DNA from: Acidimicrobiaceae bacterium
GTDB taxonomy: Bacteria; Actinomycetota; Acidimicrobiia; Acidimicrobiales; RAAP-2
Direction: 5' to 3'
Assembly: GCA_003164275.1 (NCBI GenBank)
Contig: PLSY01000180.1
Coordinates: 1-15,313, forward strand
Length of the DNA stretch: 15,313 nt
The translations under genes and the position numbers were made by a program. The notes below the pieces were generated by a model. It worked only from the letters and a program-made list of their open reading frames with translations. It was not told the DNA's origin and made no database searches. Shown here piece after piece: positions 330 to 15,313 of this stretch; positions within the stretch are counted from its first letter, which is position 1; each line of letters starts with the position of its first letter.

Positions 330-622
330 ATCCCTAGCCGGCACCGGAGCGCTGAGTGCGGAAGGCATCGCTACCCGAAGTTGACAACAATCCGGTCCGC
401 TCCCGTCGTGGGGATCGACTGACTCCAACCCATGGTCAAACACTCGGAGATAACGGACGCTCGGACACGAGGTCGCATTCCAGCTCGGGTTCTGCCAGCA
501 AGCCGCCTATCGAAGTGGCGACAACACCGGAACGTCGCGACGTTCAGCTCGGAACGCCTCTCGGGTGAGCGCCCGTTCGACGCTCTAGCCGCACCCGCCA
601 CCAGCGCCGGGAACAAGCACCC

Positions 623-1003: not shown

Positions 1004-1007
1004 GTTG

Positions 1008-1013
1008 CTCCCC
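1008..1013 (-). promoter_or_regulatory. Shine-Dalgarno for the 126-aa gene
   Basis: GGGGAG on the minus strand, four bases upstream of the ATG at 1003. It fixes the start of the unknown 126-aa gene and is the main evidence that the frame is translated. Confidence 0.6.
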
Positions 1014-1271
1014 TAGTCGATTGAGAATCCGACAACTGCCTGCCCGCAGCGATGAACAACGCTTGTCTATCAGTGGCGAGGTAACAACCAGCTGAACGGA
1101 CCCTGAACCTTGCGTGCCGATCGATCCGATTCGGGCGCCCACTCAGTCGGACCTCGATGGCCCGGTTCAGCAACCCAGCCCGAGGGAGGCTTACTGCCAG
1201 GAGGTACCCGATTCTGGTCGGCTGGAAGGAGCAACCGACAACTCGGTCCTTCCCTCGACCTATCGAACTCG

Positions 1272-1712
1272 TCACCCGTTGGGGACGGTGACGACCACCC
1301 CACCCCATTCCGGCGCCGACACGCCCGACCGCGCCGGAGTCGTTGCACTGAGTGCCGTTGCTCCGGGTGACTTAGCCAGATAGATCGACGTTCTGAGCCC
1401 GCTGCGCTTGGTGGGGGCGACCTCAAGCTGCAATCCACCAGACGGCCGGAGGACGATCGAGCCCGGCTTCGGTCCGACGGGGGCGGTCTTTGGGATGACC
1501 ACCTCGACACATTCGCCGACCACTGCTCGAACTACCGGCGTAGGTGGGCCGCTACGAAGCACTAATCGAGGTGTAGATGCGACGTTGCACTTGACCGACG
1601 TCGAGGTCGAGGTCGCGACTGACTGTCCTTCCGATCCGCTCGAACACCCGGCGACGGTTAGACCCAATGCGCATACAGCTGCAAGCACAAACCGTCGCAA
1701 GGCCGGGAGCAT
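1272..1712 (-). CDS. Small secreted lipoprotein of unknown function
   Basis: From the ATG at 1712 the product is 146 aa and begins MLPALRRFVLAAVCALGLTVAGCSS. That is a basic n-region, a hydrophobic core and the lipobox TVAGC, so lipidation at the cysteine and anchoring to the outer face of the membrane are expected. A GTG start at 1757 would add 15 residues ahead of the signal peptide; the ATG is preferred because the signal peptide then begins normally. After a short Ser/Thr linker comes a roughly 110-residue domain with many alternating hydrophobic stretches (RLVLRSG, VVRAVVGECVEVVIP, GGLQLEVAP, GGVVVTVPNG), suggesting a small all-beta fold. Two cysteines in the domain could form a disulfide. 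I recognise no specific family; a small binding or inhibitor domain is possible but unproven. Confidence 0.75.
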   Translation of the reverse strand: MLPALRRFVLAAVCALGLTVAGCSSGSEGQSVATSTSTSVKCNVASTPRLVLRSGPPTPVVRAVVGECVEVVIPKTAPVGPKPGSIVLRPSGGLQLEVAPTKRSGLRTSIYLAKSPGATALSATTPARSGVSAPEWGGVVVTVPNG

Positions 1713-2036
1713 AGGTCCATCTTTTCGTCCTCTATGTAGCCACGGCTGTCGTCTCACTCTGGTCTTTCAACGTTGATGGTCGAGCTCGAGGAACGGTTCG
1801 CGTCCGTCAAGTGCCGATTGAGCCAGCGACTCGCTCCGACCCAGCCCTGCATACTGAGGCGGGTCGGAGATCGGATGTCTCGAGTCCGCCCTTGTTCGAC
1901 CTTTCGCCGGTAGAGCTGGCGCTCACGATCCGGAGAGGGTCTCTACGCCGAGCGCCCCAGCGACCGGCACTTCCACGCCGATGACAGTTCGAGGCCATCC
2001 TGCCCTTGAGGCTCTTTGAGCCTTGGTTCCAGGATC
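1713..2036. other. Intergenic stretch without a convincing gene
   Basis: The open frames here are Arg/Ser-rich with no domain-like character and look like chance translation. The only structure I can point to is the perfect stem at 2009-2023, just past the GH114-like stop codon. The promoter of the lipoprotein gene should lie in the part next to 1713, but I see no convincing -35/-10 pair. Confidence 0.4.
2009..2023 (-). terminator. Hairpin after the GH114-like gene
   Basis: AGGCTC, three loop bases, GAGCCT: a perfect 6-bp stem starting about 14 bases beyond the minus-strand stop codon at 2037-2039. There is no run of U after it, so it would be a non-canonical terminator of the kind common in high-GC bacteria, or only a 3'-end stabilising stem. 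Confidence 0.4.
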
Positions 2037-3260
2037 CTACTGGCAGGGAATTCGTCCCCCACTCAGGCTTACGTCGAACTTGGCTCCGTTGATGCCGCTG
2101 GCGTTGTCGGAAGGGCAAAAATCACTTGGACTGAGGTTGTACTCGGCATTGAAGATTGCCTTCTTGCCGAGATACGACTTCAAGAGACCGCACGTAGAGT
2201 TCTCATTGCATTGCTCGGACAGCACGCCGTCCGCCAGCGGCTCCATGTCTGCAGCGAACGAGTCGCCGGTATCGTCTGGGTTCTTGATTATCCAGCCCAT
2301 GCCGAGGCTGTGCATGTAGTTGGCGAGTGTCGTCATGTACTGCTCCTCATCACTCTTGGTCAGAGGAAAGCCGGTAGCGCCGTCACTGCCGGAGTACGTC
2401 TCATCCAAGTCTGTCTCAACGGCGTCGAATCCCTTGGCGGCACACTGTTGACCGATCATGGACTCGATAATCGCCACAGTCGTAGGGCTGGCTATGTTCA
2501 AAAAGTACTCCGGGTAGCCACTCAGTTTGTTGCCCAGAACGCCGGCGGCCTGCAGCTGACCGAAGTAGGTGGTTGCAAGTCCCTCGGCAGCCGCGGAGTA
2601 ATAGTCACCTGCCGTTCCTACCTCGACATAACAGATGGCGTGATCGCCCATAGCGTGCAGTGCCGTGACGGTCGACTGGGGGTTCTCGATCCCATCAATA
2701 TCGTAAATGGTGGGATCCGGTGCAGGAGCGCCCGTGTAGGTGTCCACGCCCGTTCCCATGTCGCTAGGGCTCTGCAGGTTCAGCGGGTGATCGATCTCCC
2801 ACTGCCAGGGATCATTGCTAGTGGGCGACGGACTCCACCAGGTTGTCTGAGTCGGTGTGGATCCATCAGTCGAAGCTGGATTCGTCGTTGTGGTTGTCGT
2901 GCCTTCAGCGGGATCCGAGGTGGTCGTTGTCGTGCTGTCGACAGGAACCGAAGTTGTCGCCGTGCTGTCAGAGGTCGGTGCAATCCCCTGTGACGTCCAA
3001 CCACCTCTCGAGTGATCCCGACCGGGCGTACACCTGACATCAAAGCTGGTGCGTGAGCGATTTGCTACCGACAGCGACCCGCCGCTGCACGTCACCTGTC
3101 CCGTATCCCCCGATTGCATCGTGAGGCCGGGCATGACGTCACCGGCGGCCACGCCGTAACCGAGGCCGACGAAAAGTAGGACGGAACAAAGCACCATCGC
3201 AACGTTCCGGCGCGAGGCACCGGCCAGCCTCTTCCTCAGTTTCCTACCCATGCCCGTCAT
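2037..3260 (-). CDS. Secreted or membrane-anchored GH114-like glycosidase (endo-alpha-1,4-polygalactosaminidase family)
   Basis: The product is about 407 aa from the ATG at 3260. An in-frame TTG at 3302 and an ATG at 3251 are alternatives, and none has a well-spaced Shine-Dalgarno. A basic segment (RKLRKRLAGASRR) precedes a hydrophobic helix near residues 19-40 (VAMVLCSVLLFVGLGYGVAAG), a signal peptide or anchor. A Thr/Ser/Pro-rich linker follows (about 95-145). The C-terminal ~250 residues hold the catalytic domain: WQWEIDHPLN, YDIDGIENP, ICYVEVGTAGDYY, GFDAVETDLDE, GMGWIIKNPDD, DGVLSEQCN and FNAEYN. These fit the GH114/TM1410-like barrel; the Asp of VETDLDE and the Glu of SEQCN are the likely active-site acids. 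Family members cleave alpha-1,4-galactosamine polymers, so a role in trimming a cationic exopolysaccharide is plausible. It ends without a sorting signal. Confidence 0.85.
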   Translation of the reverse strand: MTGMGRKLRKRLAGASRRNVAMVLCSVLLFVGLGYGVAAGDVMPGLTMQSGDTGQVTCSGGSLSVANRSRTSFDVRCTPGRDHSRGGWTSQGIAPTSDSTATTSVPVDSTTTTTSDPAEGTTTTTTNPASTDGSTPTQTTWWSPSPTSNDPWQWEIDHPLNLQSPSDMGTGVDTYTGAPAPDPTIYDIDGIENPQSTVTALHAMGDHAICYVEVGTAGDYYSAAAEGLATTYFGQLQAAGVLGNKLSGYPEYFLNIASPTTVAIIESMIGQQCAAKGFDAVETDLDETYSGSDGATGFPLTKSDEEQYMTTLANYMHSLGMGWIIKNPDDTGDSFAADMEPLADGVLSEQCNENSTCGLLKSYLGKKAIFNAEYNLSPSDFCPSDNASGINGAKFDVSLSGGRIPCQ

Positions 3261-3302
3261 TGGATACCAGTTCGACCCAAGAGACAACGGGCGGGCGGCC
3301 AA

Positions 3303-3640
3303 CTCCTGGTGAACTCTTTGTGACTGCCTCGTCGTGTTCGGAGCCGTCTCAACCTACGGCACCCCGGTGATCGCCCGTGAGCACTCATCGATCGGATAGG
3401 CGGAACGAAGGGTGCCGGATGAGTCCGGCTGTCGGCTTACCTCTGTTCAGGGGATTTCCGGACCACGTCGGCACTTGCTGCCGCCCAGGTGCGTTTGGTG
3501 CCCTCCGACCACTTCCAGAGATGGAAACGTTTCATCGCCAATCGGAAGACCGGTCGCGAAACTGCACCATTGCATGTAACCATTGGTCGTCCGGTGAAGG
3601 ACTCTTTCGCCGGAGACAGAACCTATCGAGGACTTGAGAG
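3303..3640. other. Divergent intergenic region
   Basis: It separates the minus-strand GH114-like gene from the plus-strand coiled-coil gene and must hold both promoters. Frames on both strands here (for example plus 3377-3637) are Arg/Cys/Pro-rich with no recognisable domain, so I did not call a gene. I see no RNA gene, repeat array or clear promoter hexamers. Confidence 0.4.
3628..3632 (+). promoter_or_regulatory. Shine-Dalgarno for the coiled-coil gene
   Basis: GAGGA, eight bases before the ATG at 3641, supports both the reading frame and the start of the small proline-tailed protein. Confidence 0.5.
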
Positions 3641-4033
3641 ATGAAGTTCAACACTGGCCGTCGAACAGCAATCAAAGAGGACTCCCCCGATCCCCCGGTT
3701 GAAGCTGCGTCGCCCACCGGAGCTGAGATAGGTCAAGTGTTATTGGAGATCCATCACTTTGCCGAGAAGGCCAACGATCAAGCGAAAGCCCAGGCCGAGA
3801 TGGTCGTCCACGCGGCCGAAACGGAAGCAGACCAGATCATTGGACAAGCCACTGAAGAGGCAGACCTGATTCGCTCACGGGCGGCGCTCGGCCCAACTGA
3901 TGTCGCCGAACTCGTAGCGGCCATCGATGAGTTCTCGAAGACAAATCGCGACCTCTTGGCCGCCATGCTTGGACTGCGCGACTATCTGGATCCTCCGCCC
4001 CCACCTCCTCCGCCGCCACCGCCGCCGAGTTGA
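3641..4033 (+). CDS. Small coiled-coil protein with a C-terminal polyproline tail
   Basis: A 130-aa cytoplasmic protein with no signal peptide or membrane segment. Residues about 27-85 are a strongly charged, Ala-rich heptad-like helix (IGQVLLEIHHFAEKANDQAK, then ETEADQIIGQATEEADLIRS), similar in style to the coiled coils of DivIVA/Wag31-type proteins and ATP synthase b subunits. A second helix follows (VAELVAAIDEF, LLAAMLGLRDYL). The protein ends with Asp, twelve consecutive prolines and a final Ser. This is a proline-rich ligand tail resembling the 13-proline run near the start of the PstB in this window. It is convergent with the sortase gene, with only 25 bases between their stop codons. 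I recognise no named family; a scaffold or adaptor role is inferred from architecture only. Confidence 0.75.
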   Translation: MKFNTGRRTAIKEDSPDPPVEAASPTGAEIGQVLLEIHHFAEKANDQAKAQAEMVVHAAETEADQIIGQATEEADLIRSRAALGPTDVAELVAAIDEFSKTNRDLLAAMLGLRDYLDPPPPPPPPPPPPS

Positions 4034-4058
4034 GCGAGACGGTGGCGCCTCACGAGGC

Positions 4059-5774
4059 TCATACCGCAGCGGGAAGGAACTCGGTCAGGGCTTCAAAGAG
4101 TGCGAGAACGAGCGCGATCCATATTGGTCCAAGAATCAGCCAACGCACGCCTCGGCCAAAGTGGCTAGTCAAGCGGCGGCATCCGAGGCCCAGTAGGACG
4201 AGGGCTCCGGCTTCAACGAGCACCAAGGGAAGGAGCGACCAATTCCACCCCATGGCAACCGATGCGAGCCTGTAAGGCGACCCGCCCCCTTTGGCCGTCT
4301 TTTCAGGCTGAACAGCACCTGGCGGTTTGTAGGCGGCCACGACGATTAGCCGTTGTCTAGCTGAGTACTCAGGATTGCAGGTGGTCAAGGTAATCCGATT
4401 GTCACCGAAGTTGTTCAACACGGTGACGTCAGACGGAGAGACCGGGACAGGCGTGGCCGAGACGATGTAGGTCAGCTTCTGGCCACTCAAGGTCGTGAGA
4501 TAGATAGGGTCACCAATGGCCAGCTCGGCGAGTCGGTTGAACGGCGCTCCATGCGTTGTCCGGTGGCCGGCAATGGCTACGTTGCCCGCCTGTCCCGGCA
4601 TGGCCGTGCCTGCATAGTGCCCCGGACCCTTGGCCAGGTCAGATGCATTGGTGCCGGACACCACATACTCGGCCAGGTTGATCTTCGGAATCTGCAGCTG
4701 TGCCATCACCGATCCTTCCGCCGGGTCGGGTAGCTGAGCTGTCGCTGGTTGCAAGGCCGACGTTGGAGCGGAGGCAGGCAGAGCGGCTGCCTTCTTGACT
4801 TTCGCCGAAAACTGGGACGCAAGTACTGATTGGCTGTGGTGTTGGGTAATTGAGGTGCCCCACAGCTGCCAAGCGGCAAAGAGAATCAACAGCACACCGA
4901 TATTCCGCCCCCAGGACGATATCGTCAGCCACCTGGCTTGACTGCGCTCGCTCCCTCTTCGCGTCTTCGAATGGGCACCCCGGGTGCGAGGTCGGTATCT
5001 ACGCCGCAGCGAATGTCGTGGATGCGCAGAAGGAATAGATGACGGCTGTCCAGACCACCGCGAGCCATCAGTCCATCGACCCGGCACTGGATAAGCGGAG
5101 AGGCAAACGCCGTCACCACCCTCCTCAGCGGCGGCGAAGGCCATCGGAACCAGTGGCGCCGGCTCAAGAGGATTTTGGAACTCGACGCCTGCCGGAGCGC
5201 TCGGTGGAGGGCCCGGGAGGGCGCTCATCTCCGCTCTCTGCGGATCAACGGCGATGGCTCCGGCTGTCTGCTCGGACCCAGCCAGCCGGGAGGCAGGAAC
5301 TCTGAGTTCTCGAAGGTCATCGGTTCCCTCGGCTGCTGGTTCCGAGCTCCCATCCCGGGCCGCCGTCGAGGCGGATGTGGGCCGGCGCTGCCGATAGGCC
5401 AGGATAACCATCTGGGCGATCAGGTGTTCTTCGGACTCAGCTCCCTGCGAAGCGGACCAGACAGACAACCAGTCGTCCTGACTCAGCTCTGGGACAGACT
5501 GGCCATCTGGCTGCGGCGGAAGCTGTGAGATGAATCGTCGGGCCAGCTCTATGTCGTGATCTCGCGAATCGGCCGCTCGAAAACCTGCACCTACCTGCCT
5601 CCCTGGATCGCTGGAGGCAATCTCGTCAACGCTCCAGTCGATCATCAGCACACGCCAGCGACTGTCGCAACTTCGAGGCCTGGCACGGCCTGCGCCAGCC
5701 AATGACCATCTCGCATTGACCACCATCCCGTGGTTGCGCTCAAGGCGAAGGTTCCGCTTGGTGGTGAAGACCAT
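4059..5774 (-). CDS. Class E-type sortase with a long cytoplasmic N-terminal region
   Basis: A transpeptidase that cleaves C-terminal sorting signals and links proteins to the cell wall. The sortase domain spans about residues 350-482: LQIPKINL, catalytic His404 in AIAGHRTTHG, catalytic Cys466 in TLTTCNPEYS and Arg475 in ARQRLIVVA. The TLTTC motif fits class E enzymes, which prefer LAXTG; both PstS-like proteins here end in LAFTG. A transmembrane helix lies at 291-309, and two more near 511-531 and 544-562. Before the first helix sits a roughly 290-residue cytoplasmic region, acidic then Pro/Ser-rich and finally very basic (LRRRYRPRTRG), far longer than usual. The start at 5774 has a GGGAGA ribosome site and overlaps the glycosyltransferase gene by 35 bases; a later ATG at 5645 (MIDWSVDEI) is the alternative. 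Confidence 0.9.
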   Translation of the reverse strand: MVFTTKRNLRLERNHGMVVNARWSLAGAGRARPRSCDSRWRVLMIDWSVDEIASSDPGRQVGAGFRAADSRDHDIELARRFISQLPPQPDGQSVPELSQDDWLSVWSASQGAESEEHLIAQMVILAYRQRRPTSASTAARDGSSEPAAEGTDDLRELRVPASRLAGSEQTAGAIAVDPQRAEMSALPGPPPSAPAGVEFQNPLEPAPLVPMAFAAAEEGGDGVCLSAYPVPGRWTDGSRWSGQPSSIPSAHPRHSLRRRYRPRTRGAHSKTRRGSERSQARWLTISSWGRNIGVLLILFAAWQLWGTSITQHHSQSVLASQFSAKVKKAAALPASAPTSALQPATAQLPDPAEGSVMAQLQIPKINLAEYVVSGTNASDLAKGPGHYAGTAMPGQAGNVAIAGHRTTHGAPFNRLAELAIGDPIYLTTLSGQKLTYIVSATPVPVSPSDVTVLNNFGDNRITLTTCNPEYSARQRLIVVAAYKPPGAVQPEKTAKGGGSPYRLASVAMGWNWSLLPLVLVEAGALVLLGLGCRRLTSHFGRGVRWLILGPIWIALVLALFEALTEFLPAAV

Positions 5775-7191
5775 GAACGGTCTTCTCCCAGAATGTTGGT
5801 GCCCCGACCAACTGGCTCAGTGCCTTGATGGCGGCCAGGGACATCATGATCCAATAGAGCGGCACCAGTACCGCAGCGACGAGTAGCTCACCTCGGTTGG
5901 CGATGCGGCAGCTCATGATCGTGACGTACACCAGCAGGAAGTTTCCGAACGACCAGGACAGTAAGCCCAGGTAGTACACGGGAGCCGGGAAGATCTGCTG
6001 GATGAAGTGAGGGTGGGCAACGAACCAGACAATTGTCATCAGCCAGAACACTGGATTGACAATGGCCAGAACAGGGGTACCGCCAACGAACATCATGAAG
6101 TGGGCGAGGCCCTTCCAGCCGAGCTCACGGCGTAGCTCTCTTGGCTGCCGCATATGCACAGCGAACGTCTGCAGGTACCCCTTCAGCCAGCGGGACCGTT
6201 GTTTCATCCAGTTGACGAAGTCGCTGTTGGCCTCCTCGAATGTCTGAGATTCGAGGATACGCACCGTGTATCCCTCCCGGAAGATCCTGATGCCAAGGTC
6301 GGCGTCCTCAGTGACGTTGTACGGATCCCAAGCGCCGAGGCTCTGGAGCGCCACACGGCGAAAATGATTTGAGGTCCCGCCCAAGGGAATGGGAGCCTTC
6401 ATCGAAGCCAGACCCGGCAAGAAGAAGGAGAACCACAGGCTGTATTCGATGGTGAACCACTTCGTGATCATGTTCTGCATCGGGTTGTGATAGGCGAGTT
6501 TTGCCTGGATACAGGCCACGTCCGGACCCAGCCGACTCATAGCGACCGCAGCACGGCGTAGCTGGAGAGGCTCCGGTTCGTCCTCGGCGTCATAGATGGC
6601 CACGAGCTCGCCTCGGGCAAGGGTAAGTCCGTAGTTCAGTGCCTTCGGTTTCGTCCTCGGTTCTGCGGGAGGGATCCTCACCAACTCAAACTGGTCCCCC
6701 GGCATGGCTGCTTCGATTGCATCGATCGTCACTTGGTCGTCTGCCTCAATCAATAGCTTTACGTCAAGTCGATCTGGTGGATATTCAAATAAGGTGACAC
6801 GCCGAATCAATTCGGTAATTACCTCGGGCTCTCGATAGGCCGGGATCATTACCGTATAGACAGGGAGGTCCTCGTCGAGGACCGCGCGAGCCTCTTCGTC
6901 ACTTACTATCTCGGTAGTGCTCTCTCCATTAGACGCTCTGAATAGAACCAGTCTGTACCCGATCGCTGCCACATAGAGCAGCGTTATTATGCTGACGATC
7001 ACAGTAAATGTATCGACCAGATCAACGAGACACCCGACGAAAACTAGCACCAGGACGGAGACGCCTAATCTCCTCTGACCTTGCGAAAGAATACGTTGCG
7101 CCGAAACGCTGGGCTCCATCTCGGCCAATCCTGAAATGCTTGCTCGCAATCGCAGGTCCGATGCCTCACTGCTCATGACGGGAGTTCGCAC
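5740..7191 (-). CDS. Membrane glycosyltransferase, family 2 (processive-synthase type)
   Basis: A 483-aa protein from GTG at 7191; an ATG at 7176 would remove five residues, and neither has a clear ribosome site. Two close N-terminal membrane helices (about 42-83) precede the catalytic domain: VYTVMIPAYREPE near 111-123, LLIEADDQ near 147, KPKALNYGL near 181, the metal-binding YDAEDEPEP (Asp201/Asp204), TEDADLGIRI (294-303) and QRSRWLKGYLQ (331-341). The last is the QxxRW signature of processive inverting GT2 enzymes such as cellulose, hyaluronan and poly-GlcNAc synthases. Further helices occupy 365-460. It should polymerise a nucleotide sugar into a surface polysaccharide; the sugar cannot be read from the sequence. 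Its 3' end overlaps the sortase gene, so the two are probably co-transcribed and may be translationally coupled. Similar GT2 proteins often accompany exosortase loci. Confidence 0.9.
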   Translation of the reverse strand: MRTPVMSSEASDLRLRASISGLAEMEPSVSAQRILSQGQRRLGVSVLVLVFVGCLVDLVDTFTVIVSIITLLYVAAIGYRLVLFRASNGESTTEIVSDEEARAVLDEDLPVYTVMIPAYREPEVITELIRRVTLFEYPPDRLDVKLLIEADDQVTIDAIEAAMPGDQFELVRIPPAEPRTKPKALNYGLTLARGELVAIYDAEDEPEPLQLRRAAVAMSRLGPDVACIQAKLAYHNPMQNMITKWFTIEYSLWFSFFLPGLASMKAPIPLGGTSNHFRRVALQSLGAWDPYNVTEDADLGIRIFREGYTVRILESQTFEEANSDFVNWMKQRSRWLKGYLQTFAVHMRQPRELRRELGWKGLAHFMMFVGGTPVLAIVNPVFWLMTIVWFVAHPHFIQQIFPAPVYYLGLLSWSFGNFLLVYVTIMSCRIANRGELLVAAVLVPLYWIMMSLAAIKALSQLVGAPTFWEKTVHGLHHQAEPSP

Positions 7192-7294
7192 CAGGGAAGA
7201 TTACCAGTCGATCGGCTCAGATCACAGTCGATACTGTTGCCTCTATAGGGTCGGTATTCGCTCTACTCCATCCGTTCATCTTCTGTTTACCTGG

Positions 7295-7319
7295 CGATAA
7301 GACAATCAACTGTTTATCG
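7295..7319. promoter_or_regulatory. Inverted repeat in the divergent intergenic region (possible operator)
   Basis: CGATAA at 7295-7300 and TTATCG at 7314-7319 form a perfect 6-bp inverted repeat. The symmetry extends imperfectly inward (GAC against GT). It lies between the divergent glycosyltransferase gene and the plus-strand 123-aa gene, where promoters for both must be. Operator function is a guess from position and symmetry. Confidence 0.3.
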
Positions 7320-7396
7320 ATTCTTCCTGAGACCGCCAGGCCTCAGCCTTTACATTCATAGTGGTTATTCGTCTACAGTTCATTCGTGATCCGACG

Positions 7397-7768
7397 ATGA
7401 CTGATCTCTTCTCGATGGACAGCGATTTCTCTGAACTGATCCTGAAGGTACGCGCGTTCACCGAGGAGCAGCATCGCTTGTCTTTGCGACTCGCACATCT
7501 CAATACCGAAGAAGCCGACCACCTGAGTGTTTCGGCCGGCGAGCCGAGCACACCGGGTGCTGGGCCCTTTGACGACCTGATCGCGTCGGTGACCACGCCA
7601 GTGAGGCCCATCGAGCTGGATGTCACGAAACTTCCGCCACCTTCCCGGTTCATGGTGAGAGCGTCTCGACTCGACCGTCCCCATCGGGTTACCAAGCGGA
7701 ATTACAACTACTTCGATCAGCTCAACTCGGATCTGGCGAAGCTGGGTGATGACGAGCTTGCCCCGTAG
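7397..7768 (+). CDS. Hypothetical protein, 123 aa
   Basis: I do not recognise the family. From the ATG at 7397 (a GTG at 7361 would add 12 residues) the product begins MTDLFSMDSDFSELILKVRAF and continues with an amphipathic helix (EEQHRLSLRLAHLN). A central Pro/Ser/Gly-rich linker follows, then the segments PIELDVTKLPPPSRFMVRASRL and TKRNYNYFDQLNSDLAKL. The acidic N-terminal helix and the aromatic Asn/Tyr motif near the end look like conserved elements rather than shadow translation. It has no signal peptide and no membrane helix, so it is probably cytoplasmic. It is divergent from the glycosyltransferase gene and convergent with the membrane-protein gene, sitting alone on the plus strand inside the surface-sorting locus. 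Confidence 0.65.
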   Translation: MTDLFSMDSDFSELILKVRAFTEEQHRLSLRLAHLNTEEADHLSVSAGEPSTPGAGPFDDLIASVTTPVRPIELDVTKLPPPSRFMVRASRLDRPHRVTKRNYNYFDQLNSDLAKLGDDELAP

Positions 7769-7806
7769 GACATCGGATGGAGTCCGGTCTTTGCGAATCG
7801 ACCGAG

Positions 7807-8808
7807 TCAGCCGCTGAAGCCGGTGACCTTCACTGCCCACCGGCAAGCAGCTGTCGATTGGACGATGAGCTCCTGGCTTCCCGTCGTCGTCTGGGGAGTG
7901 ACGGAGCTGCCTGAAGCGGCAGACGAGGTCACAGTGGGAGTGGATCCAGGGCTTGAGCCAGCGGCCACCACGAAGATTTGAAATGCCGGGGTCCCGGTAG
8001 GTGCCGGGGCGCATTGGAATGCCCAACCGATATTCCAAGTCCCCGCGGCGATGGTAAAGGCGGGACTCGTCCAGTTCCCGGTCTGCTGAGTGCTGGGAAC
8101 CAGGATTGTTGCCGGCCCAACAGCCACGGTCGTGGTCGGAGAGGCCGCTGCTCCCGCCGCGCCCGATGTTGGGGTAGTGGTCGATGCGGAGGCACCCGCC
8201 GTCGAGCCGGCAGTTGTGGTCGTCGGGGAAGACTGCGTCGAACCTGTTGATGCCGTCGATCCCTTGCCGGCAGCGGTGGTGGTGGGGGTGGTGGTCGGAG
8301 ATCCCGCCGGCGCTGGGAGTTTGTATCCGCCCCCAGAGCCAGATCCGCTGCTGGCGCCTGAAGCCGAGCCGGTGCTGCCATTGATTGCCATCCCCACGAC
8401 CAAGGCGATCACCACAGCTGTGACTAGTTGCCAGGTCTTCCAAGAGCGACGCTCCTTCATATGAAGGTCGCCCTTCTCGGGTTGACGGTCGTCAACTGGC
8501 GTACCATGCGACGTCATCTGGAGCGGCTGGGGCTCTGAATGCTGGCTGGACTCCACCGGAGACGAGACCCCTCCGCCGGGAAGGTAGCCCGGGGGGACAA
8601 CAGTCGGGGCCTCGGTGGGCCCACTCGAGTACACAGGTGCGCTCGCGTAGGGATCCGAAAACGACCTCGGATCCATCTGGACCCAGTCTTCGGCGATGGG
8701 ACCGGGCTGCCCGTTCGATGCCATGGCGTTCGGCTGCCGCGGCTCCCAGCCCTCCCAGTTCGATGTCACGGCCAAAGACTGCGTGAGTGTGATCGCCCGG
8801 TCAAACAA
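7807..8808 (-). CDS. Single-pass membrane protein with Thr/Ser linker and extracytoplasmic beta domain
   Basis: About 333 aa from a TTG at 8808; GTG 8769 and ATG 8724 are plausible later starts, and an ATG at 8460 directly before the helix cannot be excluded. The N-terminal ~120 residues are Pro/Ser/Gly-rich and presumably cytoplasmic. A basic stretch (MKERRSWKTWQ) leads into one transmembrane helix at about 127-144 (VTAVVIALVVGMAING). Residues 145-235 are a Gly/Ser/Thr/Ala linker. The last ~95 residues look like a folded beta domain: NWTSPAFTIAAGTWNIGWAF, CAPAPTGTPAFQIFVV, GSQELIVQSTAACRWAVKV. Two cysteines could form a disulfide. The pattern of alternating strands with 'W.v.w.f.C' and 'C.W.v.V' recurs in actinobacterial envelope proteins, but I know no function. 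It follows the exosortase gene by 27 bases and is probably co-transcribed. Confidence 0.8.
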   Translation of the reverse strand: MFDRAITLTQSLAVTSNWEGWEPRQPNAMASNGQPGPIAEDWVQMDPRSFSDPYASAPVYSSGPTEAPTVVPPGYLPGGGVSSPVESSQHSEPQPLQMTSHGTPVDDRQPEKGDLHMKERRSWKTWQLVTAVVIALVVGMAINGSTGSASGASSGSGSGGGYKLPAPAGSPTTTPTTTAAGKGSTASTGSTQSSPTTTTAGSTAGASASTTTPTSGAAGAAASPTTTVAVGPATILVPSTQQTGNWTSPAFTIAAGTWNIGWAFQCAPAPTGTPAFQIFVVAAGSSPGSTPTVTSSAASGSSVTPQTTTGSQELIVQSTAACRWAVKVTGFSG

Positions 8809-8835
8809 ACTTTCGGTGAATCTATCGTGTCCATG

Positions 8836-10644
8836 TCAGGTCGATTCCGACGATGATCCGGCGACCACGGATGGACTCGGTTGGCGACTGCTCTCCGCTG
8901 ATTGCGCCTCTATGAGCTTCTCGGCATAGGCCACCAAAAAAGTCCGATTGTTGATGAGAGTCCGATCAGCGAGATCTTGAGGGTCGAGCGAGCCTGCCAC
9001 GTTTTGGATCGCCCGGCCCGTCTTGGCATTGGTGAGCTGCGCTCCCCCATTGGAGTTTTGGACATAGAGGACCGTCCGCTCATAGTTCGTAGACGTCCCC
9101 ATCTTCACGGGCACGATCCAATAGACGATTGACCAGCTTCCATACGCCTGCGACGTGTACGACATGGCCTGGCCCGTGATGCCCCCGACCAGCGAGACCC
9201 GGGCCACGTCGGCGAGCGCGTATCCGTGGAACGCATAGCAGTTCTCGACGCCATAGGCGGAGAAGCTCGACAGGTCGGGCGTGTTGATGACATCGGCGAC
9301 AACCGGAATATTCGTATGGAGCGGCCCCGGCGCATCCGCACGCATGATGTAGCGATTCCAGGTCGAGGTATCTCCAAACAGTGGCTTGGCCCACTCGTAG
9401 GTAGTCTCGTACCGGACGTCCCAACCGGTCGGGACCACCGGGTGTCCGATGTATGCGAGCAACTTGGCGTCACCACTGACGTCTGCCACCAGGTTGTACG
9501 TCCGAAGGCCGAGATTGCTAATGCCGAGCACAACTGCGGCCACCAGAGCGACGACCAGCGCCAGATATACCTTCGGCACAGCCAGAGCAATGCGGCTTCG
9601 AGGGCGTGGATTGTCCAGATCCGGAACGGGTTTGGGCCCGTTGTTGACCGACGCTTCGGTCCGAGCGACTCCAAGGTCGATCCGCATTCCGAGGGGTTTG
9701 ATCAGCAGGATCATGACCACCACACCCAATGAGAAGGTCACCAGTCCGACGAATGGGTGAAAGACATTGATGGCGACACCCTCTCCCCACTCCTTGCCGG
9801 CAAAGAAGATGAAGGTGATGCGCCCGAGATTCAGCACCCAGAGGAGGGCCATTCCCCCGGCGAGCCAAGCCAACTTCCGCCCGAACGGTCCTTTCACCAC
9901 GGCGGCGAAGGCTGACCCGATCAGCAAGAACCCGACGATGCCGTTGACGCCGGAGCACGCGGACACCACGCTCAATGGGAAGGTGGTCCCATGGTGGGCC
10001 ACCACAAATAACGTGTTATCTAGGGTGCCGGCCGGCTTGGCGAGGTGGGTCACAACGGCAATTTTCCGCATTGCGAACAGCGTCAGATCCGTAAATGCAT
10101 TGAGAAGTCCCAGCAAGAACCTCTGGTACGGCCAGGGCCATGCCAGGAAGAGGAAGGCGATGGCCAGCTTCTGACGCCACAGGATCCGTGTGCCGAAGAT
10201 CAGAGCGACCGCGCCGGCAACGAAAATTGGCATGGTCAACAGGTCTATCCGGTAGACCCAGAACAGCGCCGACATGCGGCTGGGAAGGAGCTCGTTCACT
10301 GTCACTGCGATCACGATCAAGGGAACGCCGATGATGTAGTCGACTTGTCGATCGTGAATGGCCGGTTCCCGCTTGACTGGCCGGGCACGGATGGCGGCCA
10401 GGGCCAGGGCGATCACCGGCACCAAACTGACGTACGCCAGAGGCGTCTGTTCGTCCGCCGTCTCCAGCAGTGTCCGTAGCGAATAGTTGTACGCAACGAG
10501 GACGGAGATCAACAGCGCGCCGATCTGCACCCGAGAACGGGTCTTCGGAGTTGCATCAGTCCACTTTTGCCTCAGGTCAGTGACTCTGGACCGGATCAGA
10601 TCCCGTCGATTGGCCGGACCCGGAGCGATCATGGCATCCGTCAT
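8836..10644 (-). CDS. Exosortase/archaeosortase-family protein with EpsI-like C-terminal domain
   Basis: 602 aa from the ATG at 10644, chosen because AAAGGA sits five bases upstream; an ATG at 10677 would add 11 residues. About eight hydrophobic helices cover residues 40-320. The catalytic triad of the exosortase family is visible: Cys230 in VVSACSGVNGIVGF, Arg275 in LNLGRITFIF, and His296 in VFHPFVG. Exosortases are multi-pass cysteine transpeptidases that process C-terminal PEP-CTERM-like signals, usually beside exopolysaccharide genes. After one more helix (about 358-378), the C-terminal ~200 residues form an extracytoplasmic domain with TYEWAKPLFGDTSTWNRYI, VENCYAFHGY and SIVYWIVPVK. These are reminiscent of the EpsI (DUF3485) domain fused to many exosortases. 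It follows pstB by 58 bases on the same strand. No PEP-CTERM substrate is encoded in the window, so its target is elsewhere or of a new type. Confidence 0.88.
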   Translation of the reverse strand: MTDAMIAPGPANRRDLIRSRVTDLRQKWTDATPKTRSRVQIGALLISVLVAYNYSLRTLLETADEQTPLAYVSLVPVIALALAAIRARPVKREPAIHDRQVDYIIGVPLIVIAVTVNELLPSRMSALFWVYRIDLLTMPIFVAGAVALIFGTRILWRQKLAIAFLFLAWPWPYQRFLLGLLNAFTDLTLFAMRKIAVVTHLAKPAGTLDNTLFVVAHHGTTFPLSVVSACSGVNGIVGFLLIGSAFAAVVKGPFGRKLAWLAGGMALLWVLNLGRITFIFFAGKEWGEGVAINVFHPFVGLVTFSLGVVVMILLIKPLGMRIDLGVARTEASVNNGPKPVPDLDNPRPRSRIALAVPKVYLALVVALVAAVVLGISNLGLRTYNLVADVSGDAKLLAYIGHPVVPTGWDVRYETTYEWAKPLFGDTSTWNRYIMRADAPGPLHTNIPVVADVINTPDLSSFSAYGVENCYAFHGYALADVARVSLVGGITGQAMSYTSQAYGSWSIVYWIVPVKMGTSTNYERTVLYVQNSNGGAQLTNAKTGRAIQNVAGSLDPQDLADRTLINNRTFLVAYAEKLIEAQSAESSRQPSPSVVAGSSSEST

Positions 10645-10649
10645 TGCAG

Positions 10650-10655
10650 TCCTTT
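10650..10655 (-). promoter_or_regulatory. Shine-Dalgarno that decides the exosortase start
   Basis: AAAGGA on the minus strand, five bases before the ATG at 10644. The upstream in-frame ATG at 10677 has no comparable site. Confidence 0.6.
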
Positions 10656-10702
10656 CCAAAACGGCTGCAACATCCATGCCCTACGTGGATCGACCGGGCT
10701 TT

Positions 10703-11647
10703 TCATCCGAATCGACCATGCACGTAGTCAGCCGTGCGGGGGTCCCGGGGATTACCGAAAACCTGACCGGTAGGGCCGGCTTCGACAATGTGACCGGGCA
10801 TGCCCTCGCCATCGACCAGGAAGAGGGCGCAGTTGTCCGAAACTCGTTGAGCCTGTTGCATGTTGTGAGTCACGATCACGATGGTGATCTCATGGCAGAG
10901 CTCCCTAATCGTAGATTCGATCACACCGGTGGAGATCGGGTCGAGGGCCGAGCAGGGTTCGTCCATCAACAGCACTTTGGGCCTCACAGCTAGGGCCCGA
11001 GCAATGCACAGCCGCTGTTGCTGACCGCCCGAGAGTGCTCCGCCGGCCTCGTTCAGCCGATTCTTGGCCTCGTTCCAAAGTCCCGCGCGCTGCAGGCACT
11101 CCTTCACCAGGGCATCGGGATTCGAGACCTTCTTTCCGGCCAGCCGCAATCCGGCCAGGACATTTTGAGCAATGGTCATCGACGGAAACGGGTTCGGCCG
11201 TTGAAACACCATCCCAATGCCCAGGCGCGTTTCAGTCACGCGGACGGTCGGACCGTAGATGTCGACGTCGTCCAGTGCCACGGAGCCAGACAGCGCCGCC
11301 GAAGGGACCAACTCGTGCATACGATTCAAGATGCGGAGAAAGGTTGACTTGCCGCATCCCGATGGTCCTATGAGGGCCGTCACCATGCCAGGTTCCATAG
11401 TTAGTGATACGCGTTCGAGCACTTTCTTCGATCCAAACCAGGCGCTCACATTCTCTGCGCGCAGTCCTGAGCGTCCTTGGGTGGTATCGGCCTGGATGCC
11501 GCCTCCATTCGCACCGGAAGACGGCGGAGGTGGCGGTGGCGGAGGTGGCGGTGGTGGCGGAAAGTCGGCGAGCGAGGGCGGAGGAGGTGGCAGATCGGCG
11601 AGCGGAGGCGGTGGCCAGTCGTTCTGTGGTTGCTGCATCGGCATCAT
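10703..11647 (-). CDS. pstB: Phosphate-type ABC transporter ATPase with a proline-rich N-terminal extension
   Basis: The ATPase that powers a Pst-type phosphate importer at the inner face of the membrane. All core motifs are intact: Walker A GPSGCGKST (94-102), Q-loop VFQRPNPFP (147-155), signature LSGGQQQRL (205-213), Walker B VLLMDEP (225-231) and the switch His261 in IVTHN. MHELVP, VDIY and QRPNPFP are typical of PstB. The oddity is the first ~60 residues, absent from ordinary PstB (about 250-260 aa). They repeat LADLPPPPP / LADFPPPPP and include 13 consecutive prolines (30-42). The extension is really translated if the start is right: ATG at 11647 has AGGAAG five bases upstream and overlaps the preceding stop as ATGA. 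The next Met candidates lie inside the ATPase fold. Similar proline runs end the small coiled-coil protein near 4.0 kb. Confidence 0.93.
   Translation of the reverse strand: MMPMQQPQNDWPPPPLADLPPPPPSLADFPPPPPPPPPPPPPSSGANGGGIQADTTQGRSGLRAENVSAWFGSKKVLERVSLTMEPGMVTALIGPSGCGKSTFLRILNRMHELVPSAALSGSVALDDVDIYGPTVRVTETRLGIGMVFQRPNPFPSMTIAQNVLAGLRLAGKKVSNPDALVKECLQRAGLWNEAKNRLNEAGGALSGGQQQRLCIARALAVRPKVLLMDEPCSALDPISTGVIESTIRELCHEITIVIVTHNMQQAQRVSDNCALFLVDGEGMPGHIVEAGPTGQVFGNPRDPRTADYVHGRFG
11644..11647 (-). other. ATGA stop/start overlap (PstS-like to pstB)
   Basis: The TGA of the divergent PstS-like gene and the ATG of pstB share two bases in ATGA. A good ribosome site (AGGAAG at 11653-11658) precedes it. 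This supports translational coupling and confirms the N-terminal extension of PstB. Confidence 0.8.
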
Positions 11648-13197
11648 GTGTGCTTCCTGCTCGGCTTCAGTTTTCGGCGGACGACAGTTCCGATCAGGAG
11701 CAGAGATCCTCCTGCGATCAAAAGCGGACCCAGGCCTGATGCCCCGGTGAAGGCAAGGCCCCCTCCAGACGTTGTGCCGAATCCCCCACCACCCGAACTT
11801 CCGCCGCTCGATCCGGCTGTCGGCGACGCTGCTGCTGCACCAGTTGTACTCGTGGTTGTGGTTGTGGTCGTGGCTGAGGCGGCGGTCGTCGTTGTAGTGG
11901 AACTTGCTTCACCCGCCGCTACTGCAGCTGACGCGTTCAACTGGGAGGCCACCTGCAGGTCAGCAGTGGTCATCGCCGTCGTGGCCCCGGCCGCCCCTAG
12001 CTGCTCGATGTCCTTTTGGCCTTGGGCACCGACGGTGAATCGGATCAACTGGGCCAACGCGTCGGCCTTGGCAGGCGTGAGACCGCTGGTCGGTACCACC
12101 AGATAACTCTCGACCATCAAGTAGCTGTTATATGCCGCAGCGTCGGTACTGCTTGCTATGAACGATACCAAGTTGTTGGTCGTGGGGTCGGATGTCACTG
12201 CCAGCGCAGCATCGCCGGCGGCAGCTTGTGCCGCCGTCGCTGACGGCGGCACGAATGCTCCTTCAGCATTCTGCACGGCTGCCGTCGACAGATTCCATGG
12301 CACACCGAGTGGGGCTCCCGTCCACACCGACGAGATCGGGCCGGTGGCGCCAAGTTGCCAGGTGTTCGCTTGCGTGCTCGGAGCATTGGTCTGAGAGTTG
12401 ATGTTGAGCAGCTTCCCGATCAGTGGCTGATCGCCGCCGGGGATGGTTCCCTGTGCATAGGGCCAGTTCTCACTCGGTGTGTCGTTCGTTGTGAGCGCTC
12501 CGGTCCCGGCCAGACCGGCGTCGAAGAGTGACTTTGACGCGGGAGTGCTGTCAAGGAGCGCCATGAGGGCAAAGTTCGCCATGGAGGGGTCGAGATTGGC
12601 CCACAGCGAAATCGGCAGGTTGTCCGCCGCACCGGTTCCGCCCGGAGGGCAGGTGACTCTCGAGTCGCCCCACAACTTGAGCGGGGTGGTTGCATCGGCT
12701 CCGAAGATCTCGCCCAGCAACGGAGTCGTCATCGGCATGTGCTGGCAGAAATCCGTAGAGGTGATCGACGGCACGGCGGAGTTGGCCCACGTCTCCGAGG
12801 GAACCAAAGTGGCAATGGCGACCGGAGTGGAGGCAAAGGGCACGTAGGCAAATGAGCGGCCGTTGGCCTTCGCAGCAGCTGATTCGGTGGCGGTGAGCGG
12901 GCGCTCGGTTACCGCATAGTCGGCGCTGAACTGACCTGGTCCACTGCCCACGAACGAAGCGATTCCCGAGTCGATCCCGGTTGCCGTGTACGCACCGAGT
13001 ATGGGGCTGAAGTTCGGTGAATCGTCGAGCAGCAGTTTCGAGACCACCGGCTGGAGGAACGACCCACCCTGGCCCGAAAGGGTTGTCGGGTCGGTATCGG
13101 CTCCGGCGACAGAGGGCGAGATGTAGCCCACCAGACCGGAAGCCACAACCAGCACTGCCAGGGACCTCAGAGCCGCAGGCCCTTTGTGCCGGCTCAT
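11644..13197 (-). CDS. Divergent PstS-like binding protein with LAFTG sorting signal
   Basis: 517 aa from the ATG at 13197, which overlaps the preceding stop as ATGA; a longer frame to 13257 lies inside the upstream gene and is unlikely. A signal peptide covers about 1-33 (LAVLVVASGLVGYISPSVAGA) and has no lipobox cysteine. The middle shows a weak substrate-binding-protein likeness (LSGQGGSFLQP, GIDSGIASFVGSGPGQFSADY, FAYVPFASTPVAIATL, LKLWGDSR, YLVVPTSGL). The usual PstS phosphate-binding 'SDGSGT' element is not apparent. A Thr-rich linker and Gly/Ser stretch end in LAFTG (481-485), a hydrophobic helix and RRKLKPSRKH, a complete sorting signal for a class E-type sortase. Its place between pstS-like and pstB genes makes a transporter-linked role likely, but the ligand may not be phosphate. 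Confidence 0.82.
   Translation of the reverse strand: MSRHKGPAALRSLAVLVVASGLVGYISPSVAGADTDPTTLSGQGGSFLQPVVSKLLLDDSPNFSPILGAYTATGIDSGIASFVGSGPGQFSADYAVTERPLTATESAAAKANGRSFAYVPFASTPVAIATLVPSETWANSAVPSITSTDFCQHMPMTTPLLGEIFGADATTPLKLWGDSRVTCPPGGTGAADNLPISLWANLDPSMANFALMALLDSTPASKSLFDAGLAGTGALTTNDTPSENWPYAQGTIPGGDQPLIGKLLNINSQTNAPSTQANTWQLGATGPISSVWTGAPLGVPWNLSTAAVQNAEGAFVPPSATAAQAAAGDAALAVTSDPTTNNLVSFIASSTDAAAYNSYLMVESYLVVPTSGLTPAKADALAQLIRFTVGAQGQKDIEQLGAAGATTAMTTADLQVASQLNASAAVAAGEASSTTTTTAASATTTTTTTSTTGAAAASPTAGSSGGSSGGGGFGTTSGGGLAFTGASGLGPLLIAGGSLLLIGTVVRRKLKPSRKHT
13194..13197 (-). other. ATGA stop/start overlap (first to second PstS-like gene)
   Basis: The stop TGA of the first PstS-like gene overlaps the ATG of the second. 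With the identical arrangement before pstB it ties three genes into one translationally coupled unit, so the two binding proteins and the ATPase are likely made together. Confidence 0.75.
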
Positions 13198-14963
13198 CCT
13201 CGTTCGCCAGACTCTTCGGCTATCGGCCTCCGCATGCTCTTCCGACGGAGGATCCATGCCGCGATGATCAGCAACGCGCCTGCTCCGACCAGGGGAACCG
13301 GGCTACCCCCGGTGAAGGCCAAAGGCGTGCTCCCAGAGAGGGCCACGGACGGGTCAGCGCCGGAGCCACCCCCACTGGACCCGCTACCGCCCGAGCTCGA
13401 ACCTGACCCCCCAGCTGCCGCTGCCGCTGCCGCCTTCGCGGCCGCTGCCTGCGTTGCGGTGGTCGTGGTGGTGGTTGCCCCCGCCTGCGCCGCGGTGTTC
13501 ACCACACCGCAGGTCGGAGTGGTCTGGCCAGCCTGTACCTCGGCCGGCGTCAGGTCTCCACAGGAGTACCCGGCCTGCTCTGCGGCTGTTGGCGCAACCG
13601 CTCCGGGGACATTGGCCTTGACCTGGTCGACTCCGTATTGCTCCAACGAGAGCCCGAGCGAGGCATAGCCAAAGGTGGGTGAAGCCTTCTGCCCGAGCGT
13701 CAATGCATAGTTGACAAAGCCGCTGAGCACAGCCCCGAGACCGGGATCCGATCCGGTTGTCTTGACCAGGAGGTAGCTGTAGGTGGAGGGGTTGTACACA
13801 TTGGGTCCGGTACCGGCGAAGTTCAGTTTGTGGGTGCCGTTGGACTGTTGAGTGGCGTAGGCGAGGGCGGAGGCCACATCGACGGGAGTGGGCTGCGTAT
13901 AGTCCCCGGTCGCGTTCTTGACCGAGGCCACACCCTTGGCTGGAGTCGTCGGGCCAAAGCCGAGGTCCGTCGCGTACTTCACCTGCACGGCCCCTATGGC
14001 GCCATTGTTGGTCGCCACGTTTCCTGCCACCCCACTGGTGCTCTGCTGATCGAGTCCCCCGGGCAGTCCCGGCCAGTTCGACTCGGGGGCGGTCGGGCTG
14101 ATGACCACACCGTCGCCAGGCCCACCGGACTGGCTGTTTTGTTGATTGGCGAAGGCAGCCCAGAGTGCAGGCTGCTGGTCGATACACCACTCCTCGAGCA
14201 CGTAGTTGGTACCCGCCGCGTCACTCTCGGTCACCGGACGGATGGTGAGGTTGGGGAAGGTGACTCCGGGGTTGTCGGCCGCCAGCTTCGGATCATTCCA
14301 GTTGGTAATACCTCCAGTAAGGATGGCGCAGGCTGTGTAGCTCGACAGCTGCAACGTCTTGGTCAATCCGTCGATCCGGTACATGAAGGCGATGCCGCCG
14401 GCGGTGACCGGCACATAGATGAATGGGAAAGTCGGCGGCGTGGTGTCGGTGCTCCCCAGCCCATAGGCGATGTCACTCGCCGCATAGTTGGTCGTGTTGT
14501 TGGCGAACTCGAACCGACCGTCGCCTGAACTCGAACTCGTGTAGTTCACGTTGAGGCTGTAGGGCGCTTGTTTGACGGTCGACGCGAAGGTCTCGATGGC
14601 CGGGGCGGCAAACGAGGAGCCGACACCGTTTAGCTGACTGGTGGCCAACGGGGTGATCGTCACAGATCCGCGGCTCGGGCCCGAAGGGGTCGAAATCGTC
14701 GGATTCGTCGTTGTCGTGGTTGTCGTCGGGTTGAGGGGACTTGTGGCTGGCGCCCCCGTCGTCAATGAAGTCGTGCTCGGCTCGGTGGTCGAAGTCGGCG
14801 TCGCTGCCGTCACCGTCGTGGTGCTGGTGGTGTCAGCGCCCGCTTGGGGTGCCGCCACCACGGTCATGCCCAGCAGGGCAATCGCTCCGGCAACCAGCAG
14901 TCGTGGGCGCGTACGACTCGATGCGCCTTCGCTTCGGTTGCGGCGTCGAGGGGTGGTTTTCAT
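13194..14963 (-). CDS. PstS-like phosphate-binding protein with LAFTG cell-wall sorting signal
   Basis: 589 aa from the ATG at 14963, preceded by AGGAGGGAAG. An in-frame ATG at 15068 overlapping the pstA stop is an alternative, but it would bury the signal peptide. Signal peptide about 21-43 (RLLVAGAIALLGMTVVAAPQAGA), without a lipobox. A Thr/Pro-rich linker covers 44-100. The binding domain (about 110-450) shows PstS hallmarks: LNGVGSSFAAP, YTSSSSGDG, ASDIAYG, GGITNWNDP, and VTESDAAGTNYVLEEW. A second linker is Thr-, Ala- and Gly/Ser-rich. The end is LAFTG (548-552), a hydrophobic helix (556-572) and RRKSMRR, a complete class E-type sorting signal. PstS in Gram-positives is normally a lipoprotein; here wall anchoring is predicted. 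It would capture phosphate or a similar anion and pass it to the PstC/PstA permease upstream. Confidence 0.9.
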   Translation of the reverse strand: MKTTPRRRNRSEGASSRTRPRLLVAGAIALLGMTVVAAPQAGADTTSTTTVTAATPTSTTEPSTTSLTTGAPATSPLNPTTTTTTTNPTISTPSGPSRGSVTITPLATSQLNGVGSSFAAPAIETFASTVKQAPYSLNVNYTSSSSGDGRFEFANNTTNYAASDIAYGLGSTDTTPPTFPFIYVPVTAGGIAFMYRIDGLTKTLQLSSYTACAILTGGITNWNDPKLAADNPGVTFPNLTIRPVTESDAAGTNYVLEEWCIDQQPALWAAFANQQNSQSGGPGDGVVISPTAPESNWPGLPGGLDQQSTSGVAGNVATNNGAIGAVQVKYATDLGFGPTTPAKGVASVKNATGDYTQPTPVDVASALAYATQQSNGTHKLNFAGTGPNVYNPSTYSYLLVKTTGSDPGLGAVLSGFVNYALTLGQKASPTFGYASLGLSLEQYGVDQVKANVPGAVAPTAAEQAGYSCGDLTPAEVQAGQTTPTCGVVNTAAQAGATTTTTTATQAAAAKAAAAAAAGGSGSSSGGSGSSGGGSGADPSVALSGSTPLAFTGGSPVPLVGAGALLIIAAWILRRKSMRRPIAEESGERG

Positions 14964-14970
14964 AGACGGG

Positions 14971-14980
14971 CTTCCCTCCT
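14971..14980 (-). promoter_or_regulatory. Strong Shine-Dalgarno that decides the PstS-like start
   Basis: AGGAGGGAAG, seven bases before the ATG at 14963. It favours this start over the longer in-frame possibilities at 15068 and 15104 and gives a normal signal peptide. Confidence 0.7.
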
Positions 14981-15064
14981 GCGAGATCAGTCGGTGGTGA
15001 AGATTCACTTTTTGTTCCTTCGTTGTGGTTTGAAGCTGTCTGAAAGGCCGGGCCAGGCAAGCCC

Positions 15065-15313
15065 TCATGGCTCCACGATCCGGGAGGATCGCATCCGAGC
15101 CCACGGTGCAAAGCGTCGACCCGGCTTCGACGAGCCCAGCAACCTTGCGATGAGGAACAGGATGAGTACGACGAACACGAGCACCAGCGAAGCTCCCCAG
15201 GCGGCCTGCACAGGAACGACACCGGGCTGGAAGATGTTCTCGTAGATTCGAAGCGGAAGGTCATCCTGTTGGCCGGAGAACGGATTCCAGTTGTAGCTCG
15301 CGAAGCCCCCGGC
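15065..15313 (-). CDS. pstA: PstA-like phosphate ABC transporter permease, C-terminal part only
   Basis: The frame is open from the right window edge to a TGA at 15065-15067, giving the last 82 residues. It includes YNWNPFSGQQDDLPLRIYEN, then VPVQAAWGASLVLVFVVLIL, the final membrane helix, and a basic cytoplasmic tail (SSKPGRRFAPWARMR). The combination of an 'LP..IY' loop and 'AWGAaLVL' before the last helix is typical of the C-terminus of Pst permeases, more often PstA than PstC. It sits directly upstream of the PstS-like gene, consistent with a pstC-pstA-pstS-pstS-pstB order; pstC would lie outside the window. The N-terminal membrane helices and the EAA loop are not visible, so the A-versus-C distinction is from order and tail only. 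Confidence 0.8.
   Translation of the reverse strand, partial: AGGFASYNWNPFSGQQDDLPLRIYENIFQPGVVPVQAAWGASLVLVFVVLILFLIARLLGSSKPGRRFAPWARMRSSRIVEP

Follow-up and report, generated by a model that had tools for sequence, protein, structure and literature searches.

In Gram-positive bacteria, the receptors of ATP-binding cassette (ABC) importers are expected to be lipid-anchored beside their permease. In the staphylococcal Isd heme relay, wall-anchored nutrient binders pass their ligand to a membrane ABC system that retains a lipoprotein receptor. Here we describe a 15,313-nucleotide stretch of DNA from an Acidimicrobiaceae bacterium (GenBank assembly GCA_003164275.1, contig PLSY01000180.1, positions 1 to 15,313; hereafter the window), which encodes two PstS-type receptors, PstS-A and PstS-B, that lack a lipobox and end in sorting tails, in one gene cluster with their ABC transporter and a class E sortase, SrtE. 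Folds and sortase class differ from those of Isd. The window type of locus resembles E. coli PstSCAB (solved entry 9k3s and others) through homology of PstC, PstA and PstB, through the sequence of PstS-A and through the fold of PstS-B, but differs from it in several ways: there are two receptors, which have sorting tails rather than a lipid anchor and are altered at ligand positions, and a sortase and an exosortase are linked. SrtE resembles Streptomyces coelicolor SrtE1 in being a class E sortase with a Tyr proposed to select Ala, and the tails follow the LAXTG plan, as described in the available portion of PMC5148588; unlike SrtE1, it is linked to ABC transporter genes and has transport receptors as its likely substrates. 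The closest published precedent that we found is the znu cluster of C. diphtheriae, where wall-anchored ligand binders, including the sortase-signal protein ZnuG, accompany an ABC uptake operon; as far as the available portion of PMC12445094 describes it, the receptor ZnuA there has lipid-anchoring signals and the wall proteins are additional to it, whereas in the window the cluster's own receptors carry the sorting tails. Search listings of the open-access literature showed no fitting precedent for sortase-anchored PstS or other ABC receptors, nor for inactive sortases of the kind described below, and no such case was found in the available portions of PMC2879425, PMC13251363 and PMC5882110.

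PstS-A (13194-14963, minus strand; 589 aa) comprises a signal peptide, an N-terminal Thr-rich stretch, a PBP domain, a linker and a sorting tail, with its ATG at 14963 preceded by AGGAGG and LAFTG at residues 548-552 (13308-13322, minus strand). PstS-B (11644-13197, minus strand; 517 aa) is a second, divergent PstS-fold receptor with LAFTG at residues 481-485 (11743-11757, minus strand). Its ATG overlaps the PstS-A stop codon (ATGA), and the start of the ATPase gene pstB overlaps the PstS-B stop codon in the same way. Both receptors begin with a signal peptide, and at the C-terminus of each, LAFTG is followed by a hydrophobic helix and a basic tail, the arrangement of a class E sortase substrate; a preliminary description of this DNA had already noted these ends, at coordinates that proved right. 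Lipobox and sorting-tail assignments were made with pattern filters, together with inspection by eye for the window N-termini, the tail filter requiring the motif, a hydrophobic stretch and a basic tail. PstS-A and PstS-B are the only window open reading frames of at least 60 aa that pass the tail filter, which their shuffled last 75 residues passed 28 and 86 times in 20,000, respectively.

The tails are well conserved. Homolog counts refer to the best 120 of at least 587 matches for PstS-A and the best 120 of at least 320 for PstS-B, the window's own or an identical protein included. An L/M-A/P-x-TG sorting tail is present in 118/120 matches to each receptor, so that loss of the tail in all close relatives, which would have undermined the preliminary description, is not what is seen. 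The second motif position is Ala in 112 and Pro in 6 of the PstS-A tails, and Ala in 116 and Pro in 2 of those of PstS-B. The two PstS-A exceptions (P0036 and P0063) end in a PE-containing stretch, a helix and an Arg run, while one PstS-B exception has LAFSG and the other lacks any such end. By rough anchors, a median of 63 residues separates the end of the domain from the motif in PstS-A (n = 107), and one of 61 residues in PstS-B (n = 109).

Neither by eye nor by pattern was a lipobox found in the N-termini of PstS-A and PstS-B, in keeping with the earlier claim that both lack a lipobox Cys, and the in-frame upstream starts (15104 for PstS-A and 13257 for PstS-B), at which a lipobox might have been missed, give no hydrophobic segment ahead of a Cys. 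A lipobox-like string occurs within the first 60 residues of 8/120 PstS-A and 4/120 PstS-B matches and is thus not conserved. In P0122, the closest other PstS-B among the matches listed (81%), a lipobox-like VGAC in the signal peptide co-occurs with a sorting tail, so double anchoring may be possible in that protein. Sorting tails are absent from all 21 other PF12849 proteins fetched from the relatives' genomes, of which 12 carry a lipobox-like string; because the remaining 9 lack the string as well, a missing lipobox is not special by itself. Missing lipoprotein machinery was considered as a cause of the tails and ruled out, since a search for Lgt, which did not extend to LspA, found it in 10/11 relatives' genomes (all but G004).

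An intact class E sortase, SrtE (4059-5774, minus strand), lies ~5 kb downstream of the window pstB. Its active site retains the catalytic triad residues (His, Cys and Arg) together with the Tyr of class E enzymes, and it scores 162.5 bits with NF033747 (cut-off 160). Aligned to solved class E sortases, it shows Tyr at the SrtE1 Tyr229 position (counted by hand). According to the available portion of PMC5148588, LAXTG is the signal of class E sortases, and their Tyr has been proposed to allow the reading of Ala within it. A contig scan gave 12 loci, 11 titled Acidimicrobiales or Acidimicrobiaceae and one (L007) a metagenome-assembled genome titled Mycobacterium sp.; two of them (L002 and L005) run into a contig end, and in L009 a PstS-A relative, which has a TPE-type tail, stands alone, leaving nine. 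pstA, pstSA, pstSB, pstB and srtE occur together in 9/9 of these loci with enough flank, and an exosortase gene in 8/9. The gene order in L006 is pstC-pstA-pstSA-pstSB-pstB-xrt-srtE, with gene ends overlapping from pstC through xrt. In all 10 window-type loci, the window included, the first sortase is intact. The conserved tails and the linked, intact SrtE support the earlier proposal of a class E sortase signal in place of a lipid anchor. As a separate case of active-site Cys loss, L006 carries a second sortase copy (L006:18337-19734) beside the active one, with Ser in place of Cys and His kept.

The cluster holds the gene set of a Pst-type importer, namely PstC, PstA, PstB and PstS-type receptors. 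The window ends inside pstA, of which it contains only the C-terminal end (15072-15313, minus strand, identified from the translation and cut by the window edge; tblastn match in 11/12 relative loci), and its own pstC falls outside, so the pstC data come from the relative L006. The L006 PstC and PstA pass curated NCBIfam models, PstA by 0.05 bit. The window PstB (10703-11647, minus strand) has Walker A, signature and Walker B motifs, as judged by eye, and also carries a proline-rich N-terminal extension. PstS-A matches PF12849 (1.2e-23) and TIGR00975 (7.9e-38), yet the NCBIfam equivalog cut-offs are missed by PstS-A (130.3 vs. 205 bits), PstS-B (27.6 vs. 205 bits) and, with TIGR00972, PstB (317.8 vs. 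343.2 bits). The predicted model of PstS-B has the PstS fold; the predicted structure of PstS-A has a mean pLDDT of 42 and was excluded from fold searches.

We consider it reasonably likely that this is an extra, specialised Pst-type ABC locus whose receptors are sorted to the wall by the clustered SrtE. Ordinary signal peptides would mediate export of both receptors, the C-terminal helix would hold them at first, SrtE would cut LAFTG between Thr and Gly and join the receptors to a peptidoglycan precursor, and the receptors would then stand in the wall on flexible linkers (medians of ~60 residues among homologs), above the PstCAB permease, to which they would deliver ligand. This reading draws on sequence-level evidence: the tails, the missing lipobox, the gene order, the intact sortase active site, the conservation of these features, and the fold of the PstS-B model.

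Related loci, in which PstS-A has a C-terminal helix only, provide a comparison. When 298 genomes of the order were searched with a PstS-B alignment, few had strong hits and many had weak ones. Among 18 stretches fetched around weak hits, six loci (L085, L086, L087 with the overlapping L088, L089, L090 and L091) contain pstC, pstA, pstB, a PstS-A type protein with a C-terminal helix only, and a sortase homolog, their pstB being 66-72% identical to that of the window; L092 is a fragment that includes a sortase, and the other weak-hit stretches mostly resemble ordinary pst operons. A search of 397 genomes of the order with the helix-type PstS-A gave hits at 1e-60 or better in 72, the weaker hits inspected being ordinary PstS (e.g., L139-L141), and 40 stretches were fetched, 39 from the 72-genome list and one from a sortase list. 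The sortase homologs of the L085-L091 and L103-L142 loci lack the catalytic Cys in 30/30 cases, with Ser, Ala, Thr or Val instead; 24 of the 30 also lack the His, none has a Cys near the site, and the genes are intact. Control sortases from elsewhere in the order, hand-picked from that sortase list and examined with 2.2-2.8 kb around each, keep His, Cys and Arg in 20/20. In a sample of the phylum, 9/396 genomes gave a strong match, four of them already in the order sample; of the other five loci, four have an altered sortase active site (by eye) and the fifth has its sortase cut by an edge.

A PstS-A sorting tail is found in 9/10 loci with an active sortase vs. 0/28 with a Cys-less one, where PstS-A has a plain C-terminal helix in 27 loci and none in L138. 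PstS-B has a sorting tail in 10/10 active-sortase loci. Rows with no sortase seen, which include the duplicate L088 (of L087) and the ordinary PstS of L139-L141, show a PstS-A sorting tail in 2/13. In 11 Cys-less loci, distinct from the 11 with an LPxTG-type tailed neighbor described below, the protein upstream of the sortase matches a PstS profile, in some weakly. On the PstB tree, loci of the active-sortase type form one clade (99/97). Its sister (99/98 jointly) consists of six loci of the helix-anchored kind; four of these have a dead sortase, and no sortase was seen in the other two. Additional dead types branch outside this pair, with weak support for one joining branch, and the tree has 3 outgroup rows. 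On the sortase tree, which has long branches, the active Pst-linked enzymes group with ordinary class E sortases (99/99), and the grouping of all Pst-linked sortases in one clade was not rejected by an AU test (p 0.247). The window locus looks to be derived from one whose receptors were only membrane-tethered; the active linked sortase may have displaced a dead one, or activity may have been lost repeatedly.

The binding sites of both receptors depart from that of E. coli PstS, whose residue roles and numbering (Arg135, Ser139, Asp56, etc.) we take to be as commonly given. In PstS-A, Glu replaces Arg135 and Ala replaces Ser139 in all 117 motif-readable sequences of the best 120 matches; the Asp56, Asp137, Gly140 and Thr141 positions are kept. 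Three window-type loci (L008, L010 and L012) retain Arg at 135, so this position varies within the locus type. PstS-A Arg150, near the Ser38 position, is invariant across 24 aligned sequences and could in principle compensate for the lost Arg135. By profile alignment, in which single columns are uncertain, the window PstS-B has Ile, Glu, Asn, Met and Ala at positions 38, 56, 135, 140 and 141, respectively, and 5/8 ligand positions are clearly changed. Neither receptor thus keeps the phosphate ligand residues including Arg135. In the Cys-less loci, position 135 of PstS-A is Arg in 21, His in one and unread in six of 28. On the transporter side, an Arg and a Glu of PstC and an Arg of PstA, presumably important in the E. 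coli complex, are kept in L006, as aligned to the solved structure. Additional pstC-pstA-pstB sets are present in 8/8 relatives' genomes examined (of 11), to which all our statements on other Pst systems refer; one such stretch, L076, has a sortase hit nearby. Given the Glu in place of Arg135 in PstS-A and the changes at most ligand positions of PstS-B, the ligand is probably bound unlike in canonical PstS, and a phosphate function of the system is doubtful.

Several observations weigh against wall sorting by SrtE as set out above. The switch between locus types occurs once on the PstB tree, making the association of tail with active site in effect one event; L011, despite its active sortase, has a PstS-A tail (DAQTG) that the motif filter rejects; and in 11 Cys-less loci (L108-L111, L113, L114 and L116-L120) an LPxTG-type tailed protein lies just upstream of the dead sortase, so that the link between tail and active site is not a strict one at the locus level. 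Two further genes on the minus strand separate the window SrtE from the exosortase gene, 3 kb away, so that co-transcription is uncertain. The exosortase of the same cluster could itself be the processing enzyme for the LAFTG tails, being present in the window and linked in 8/9 relatives, but we regard this as very unlikely: L001 has SrtE directly behind pstB and a sorted PstS pair with no exosortase within the stretch examined, these genomes contain another tail (TPE...LLPL, helix and Arg run) that is a candidate exosortase target, and, in the available portion of PMC5148588, LAXTG is a class E signal. If instead the C-terminal helix were the working anchor, the receptors would stay beside the permease and LAFTG would be cut slowly or never. 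A membrane tether is the simplest way to reach the permease, and the helix-only PstS-A of the Cys-less loci (27/28), with the Arg at 135 expected of a working receptor in 21/28, fits such an arrangement; retention of the motif in 118/120 matches for each receptor and an intact linked sortase in 10/10 window-type loci argue against it for the window type, and we judge it unlikely there.

Two further readings concern what the receptors do. The preliminary description took them for phosphate-type binding proteins that might act as a surface phosphate trap, a tethered relay or a sensor. Their assignment to the PstS-type family holds, through the fold for PstS-B and the sequence for PstS-A, as does the sorting tail in place of a lipoprotein anchor; a phosphate ligand is doubtful. 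PstS fold and PstCAB homology speak for it, as do the four canonical positions retained by PstS-A, the three loci keeping Arg135 and an Arg150 that might replace this residue, but with Glu at 135 and Ala at 139 in 117/117 readable PstS-A sequences, PstS-B departing at most ligand positions, and further pstCAB sets in relatives' genomes, we hold a wall-bound phosphate trap or relay for high-affinity uptake to be improbable. Alternatively, the receptors may no longer serve transport and may instead have an adhesion or surface role within a locus for wall display. In several relatives, the region upstream of pstC encodes sorted proteins in two size ranges (275-373 aa and ~960-1175 aa), with Big_1 and Invasin_D3 domains in both long ones tested, and the pocket residues of both receptors are altered. 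The pstCAB genes are nonetheless retained in the cluster, with ATPase motifs present in PstB and the key Arg and Glu residues kept in the L006 PstC and PstA, and a transporter without a receptor role for PstS-A and PstS-B would be hard to account for, so we give this reading little chance.

The rest of the window, listed from pstB downstream, begins with the exosortase/archaeosortase family membrane protein (8836-10677, minus strand; PF09721 4e-19; TIGR04178 58.4 bits, cut-off 23), whose gene type is also present in four Cys-less-sortase loci (L089, L124, L136 and L142). A tail shared by secreted proteins, PE[V/A/I]..LLP followed by a helix and an Arg run, occurs at L009:55-702, 4287-5213, 6579-8717 and 9234-10652, L006:869-1588, L089:11189-11803 and L092:696-1454, and may be targeted by the exosortases of these genomes; the PstS-A relative in L009 carries a PE..LLP-type tail instead of LAxTG. 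Beyond the exosortase gene are a 333-aa protein with a Thr/Ser-rich middle and no assigned function (7807-8808, minus strand; no matches in Pfam and NCBIfam; L001 and L004 show partial matches at their far end) and, between exosortase and sortase, a GT2 glycosyltransferase (5740-7191, minus strand; PF13632 3.3e-25) that was not seen in the nine relatives' loci and has homologs in L089 and L142. A GH114-family glycoside hydrolase with a Thr-rich N-terminal stretch (window 2037-3302; PF03537 6.9e-39) follows. Among the relatives, a family of 500-760 aa proteins, with no Pfam match in six tested, lies upstream of the cluster in L006 (1667-3955), L001, L004, L010, L011 and L012. Three L006 surface proteins (L006:869-1588, 6845-7708 and 4065-6944) have a common domain of ~150 residues, recognized by eye, with a very weak enediyne chromoprotein match in two; one has a TPE tail and two have LAFTG.

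The window thus probably represents an extra Pst-type transporter locus, of a kind seen in Acidimicrobiales, with receptor tails that are real and well conserved and for which the sorting-tail reading is the best supported. Receptors resembling sortase substrates raise the question of whether a wall-linked receptor can still feed its transporter or has taken on a new role, and natural before-and-after pairs are available through the related loci, where receptors are held in the membrane and the sortases are Cys-less. We tentatively suggest, as a possibility that the sequences raise, that in this separate Pst-type lineage the receptors have a protein of the sortase fold as their standing partner. 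This partner would be Cys-less and usually His-less in most branches, encoded by an intact gene directly behind a PstS-like or LPxTG-type-tailed protein in most of the loci seen, and may hold tails uncut; in the window clade it would be active, with the receptors linked to the wall and the ligand changed. If true, conserved, catalytically dead sortases tied to a transporter would constitute a new role for the sortase fold.

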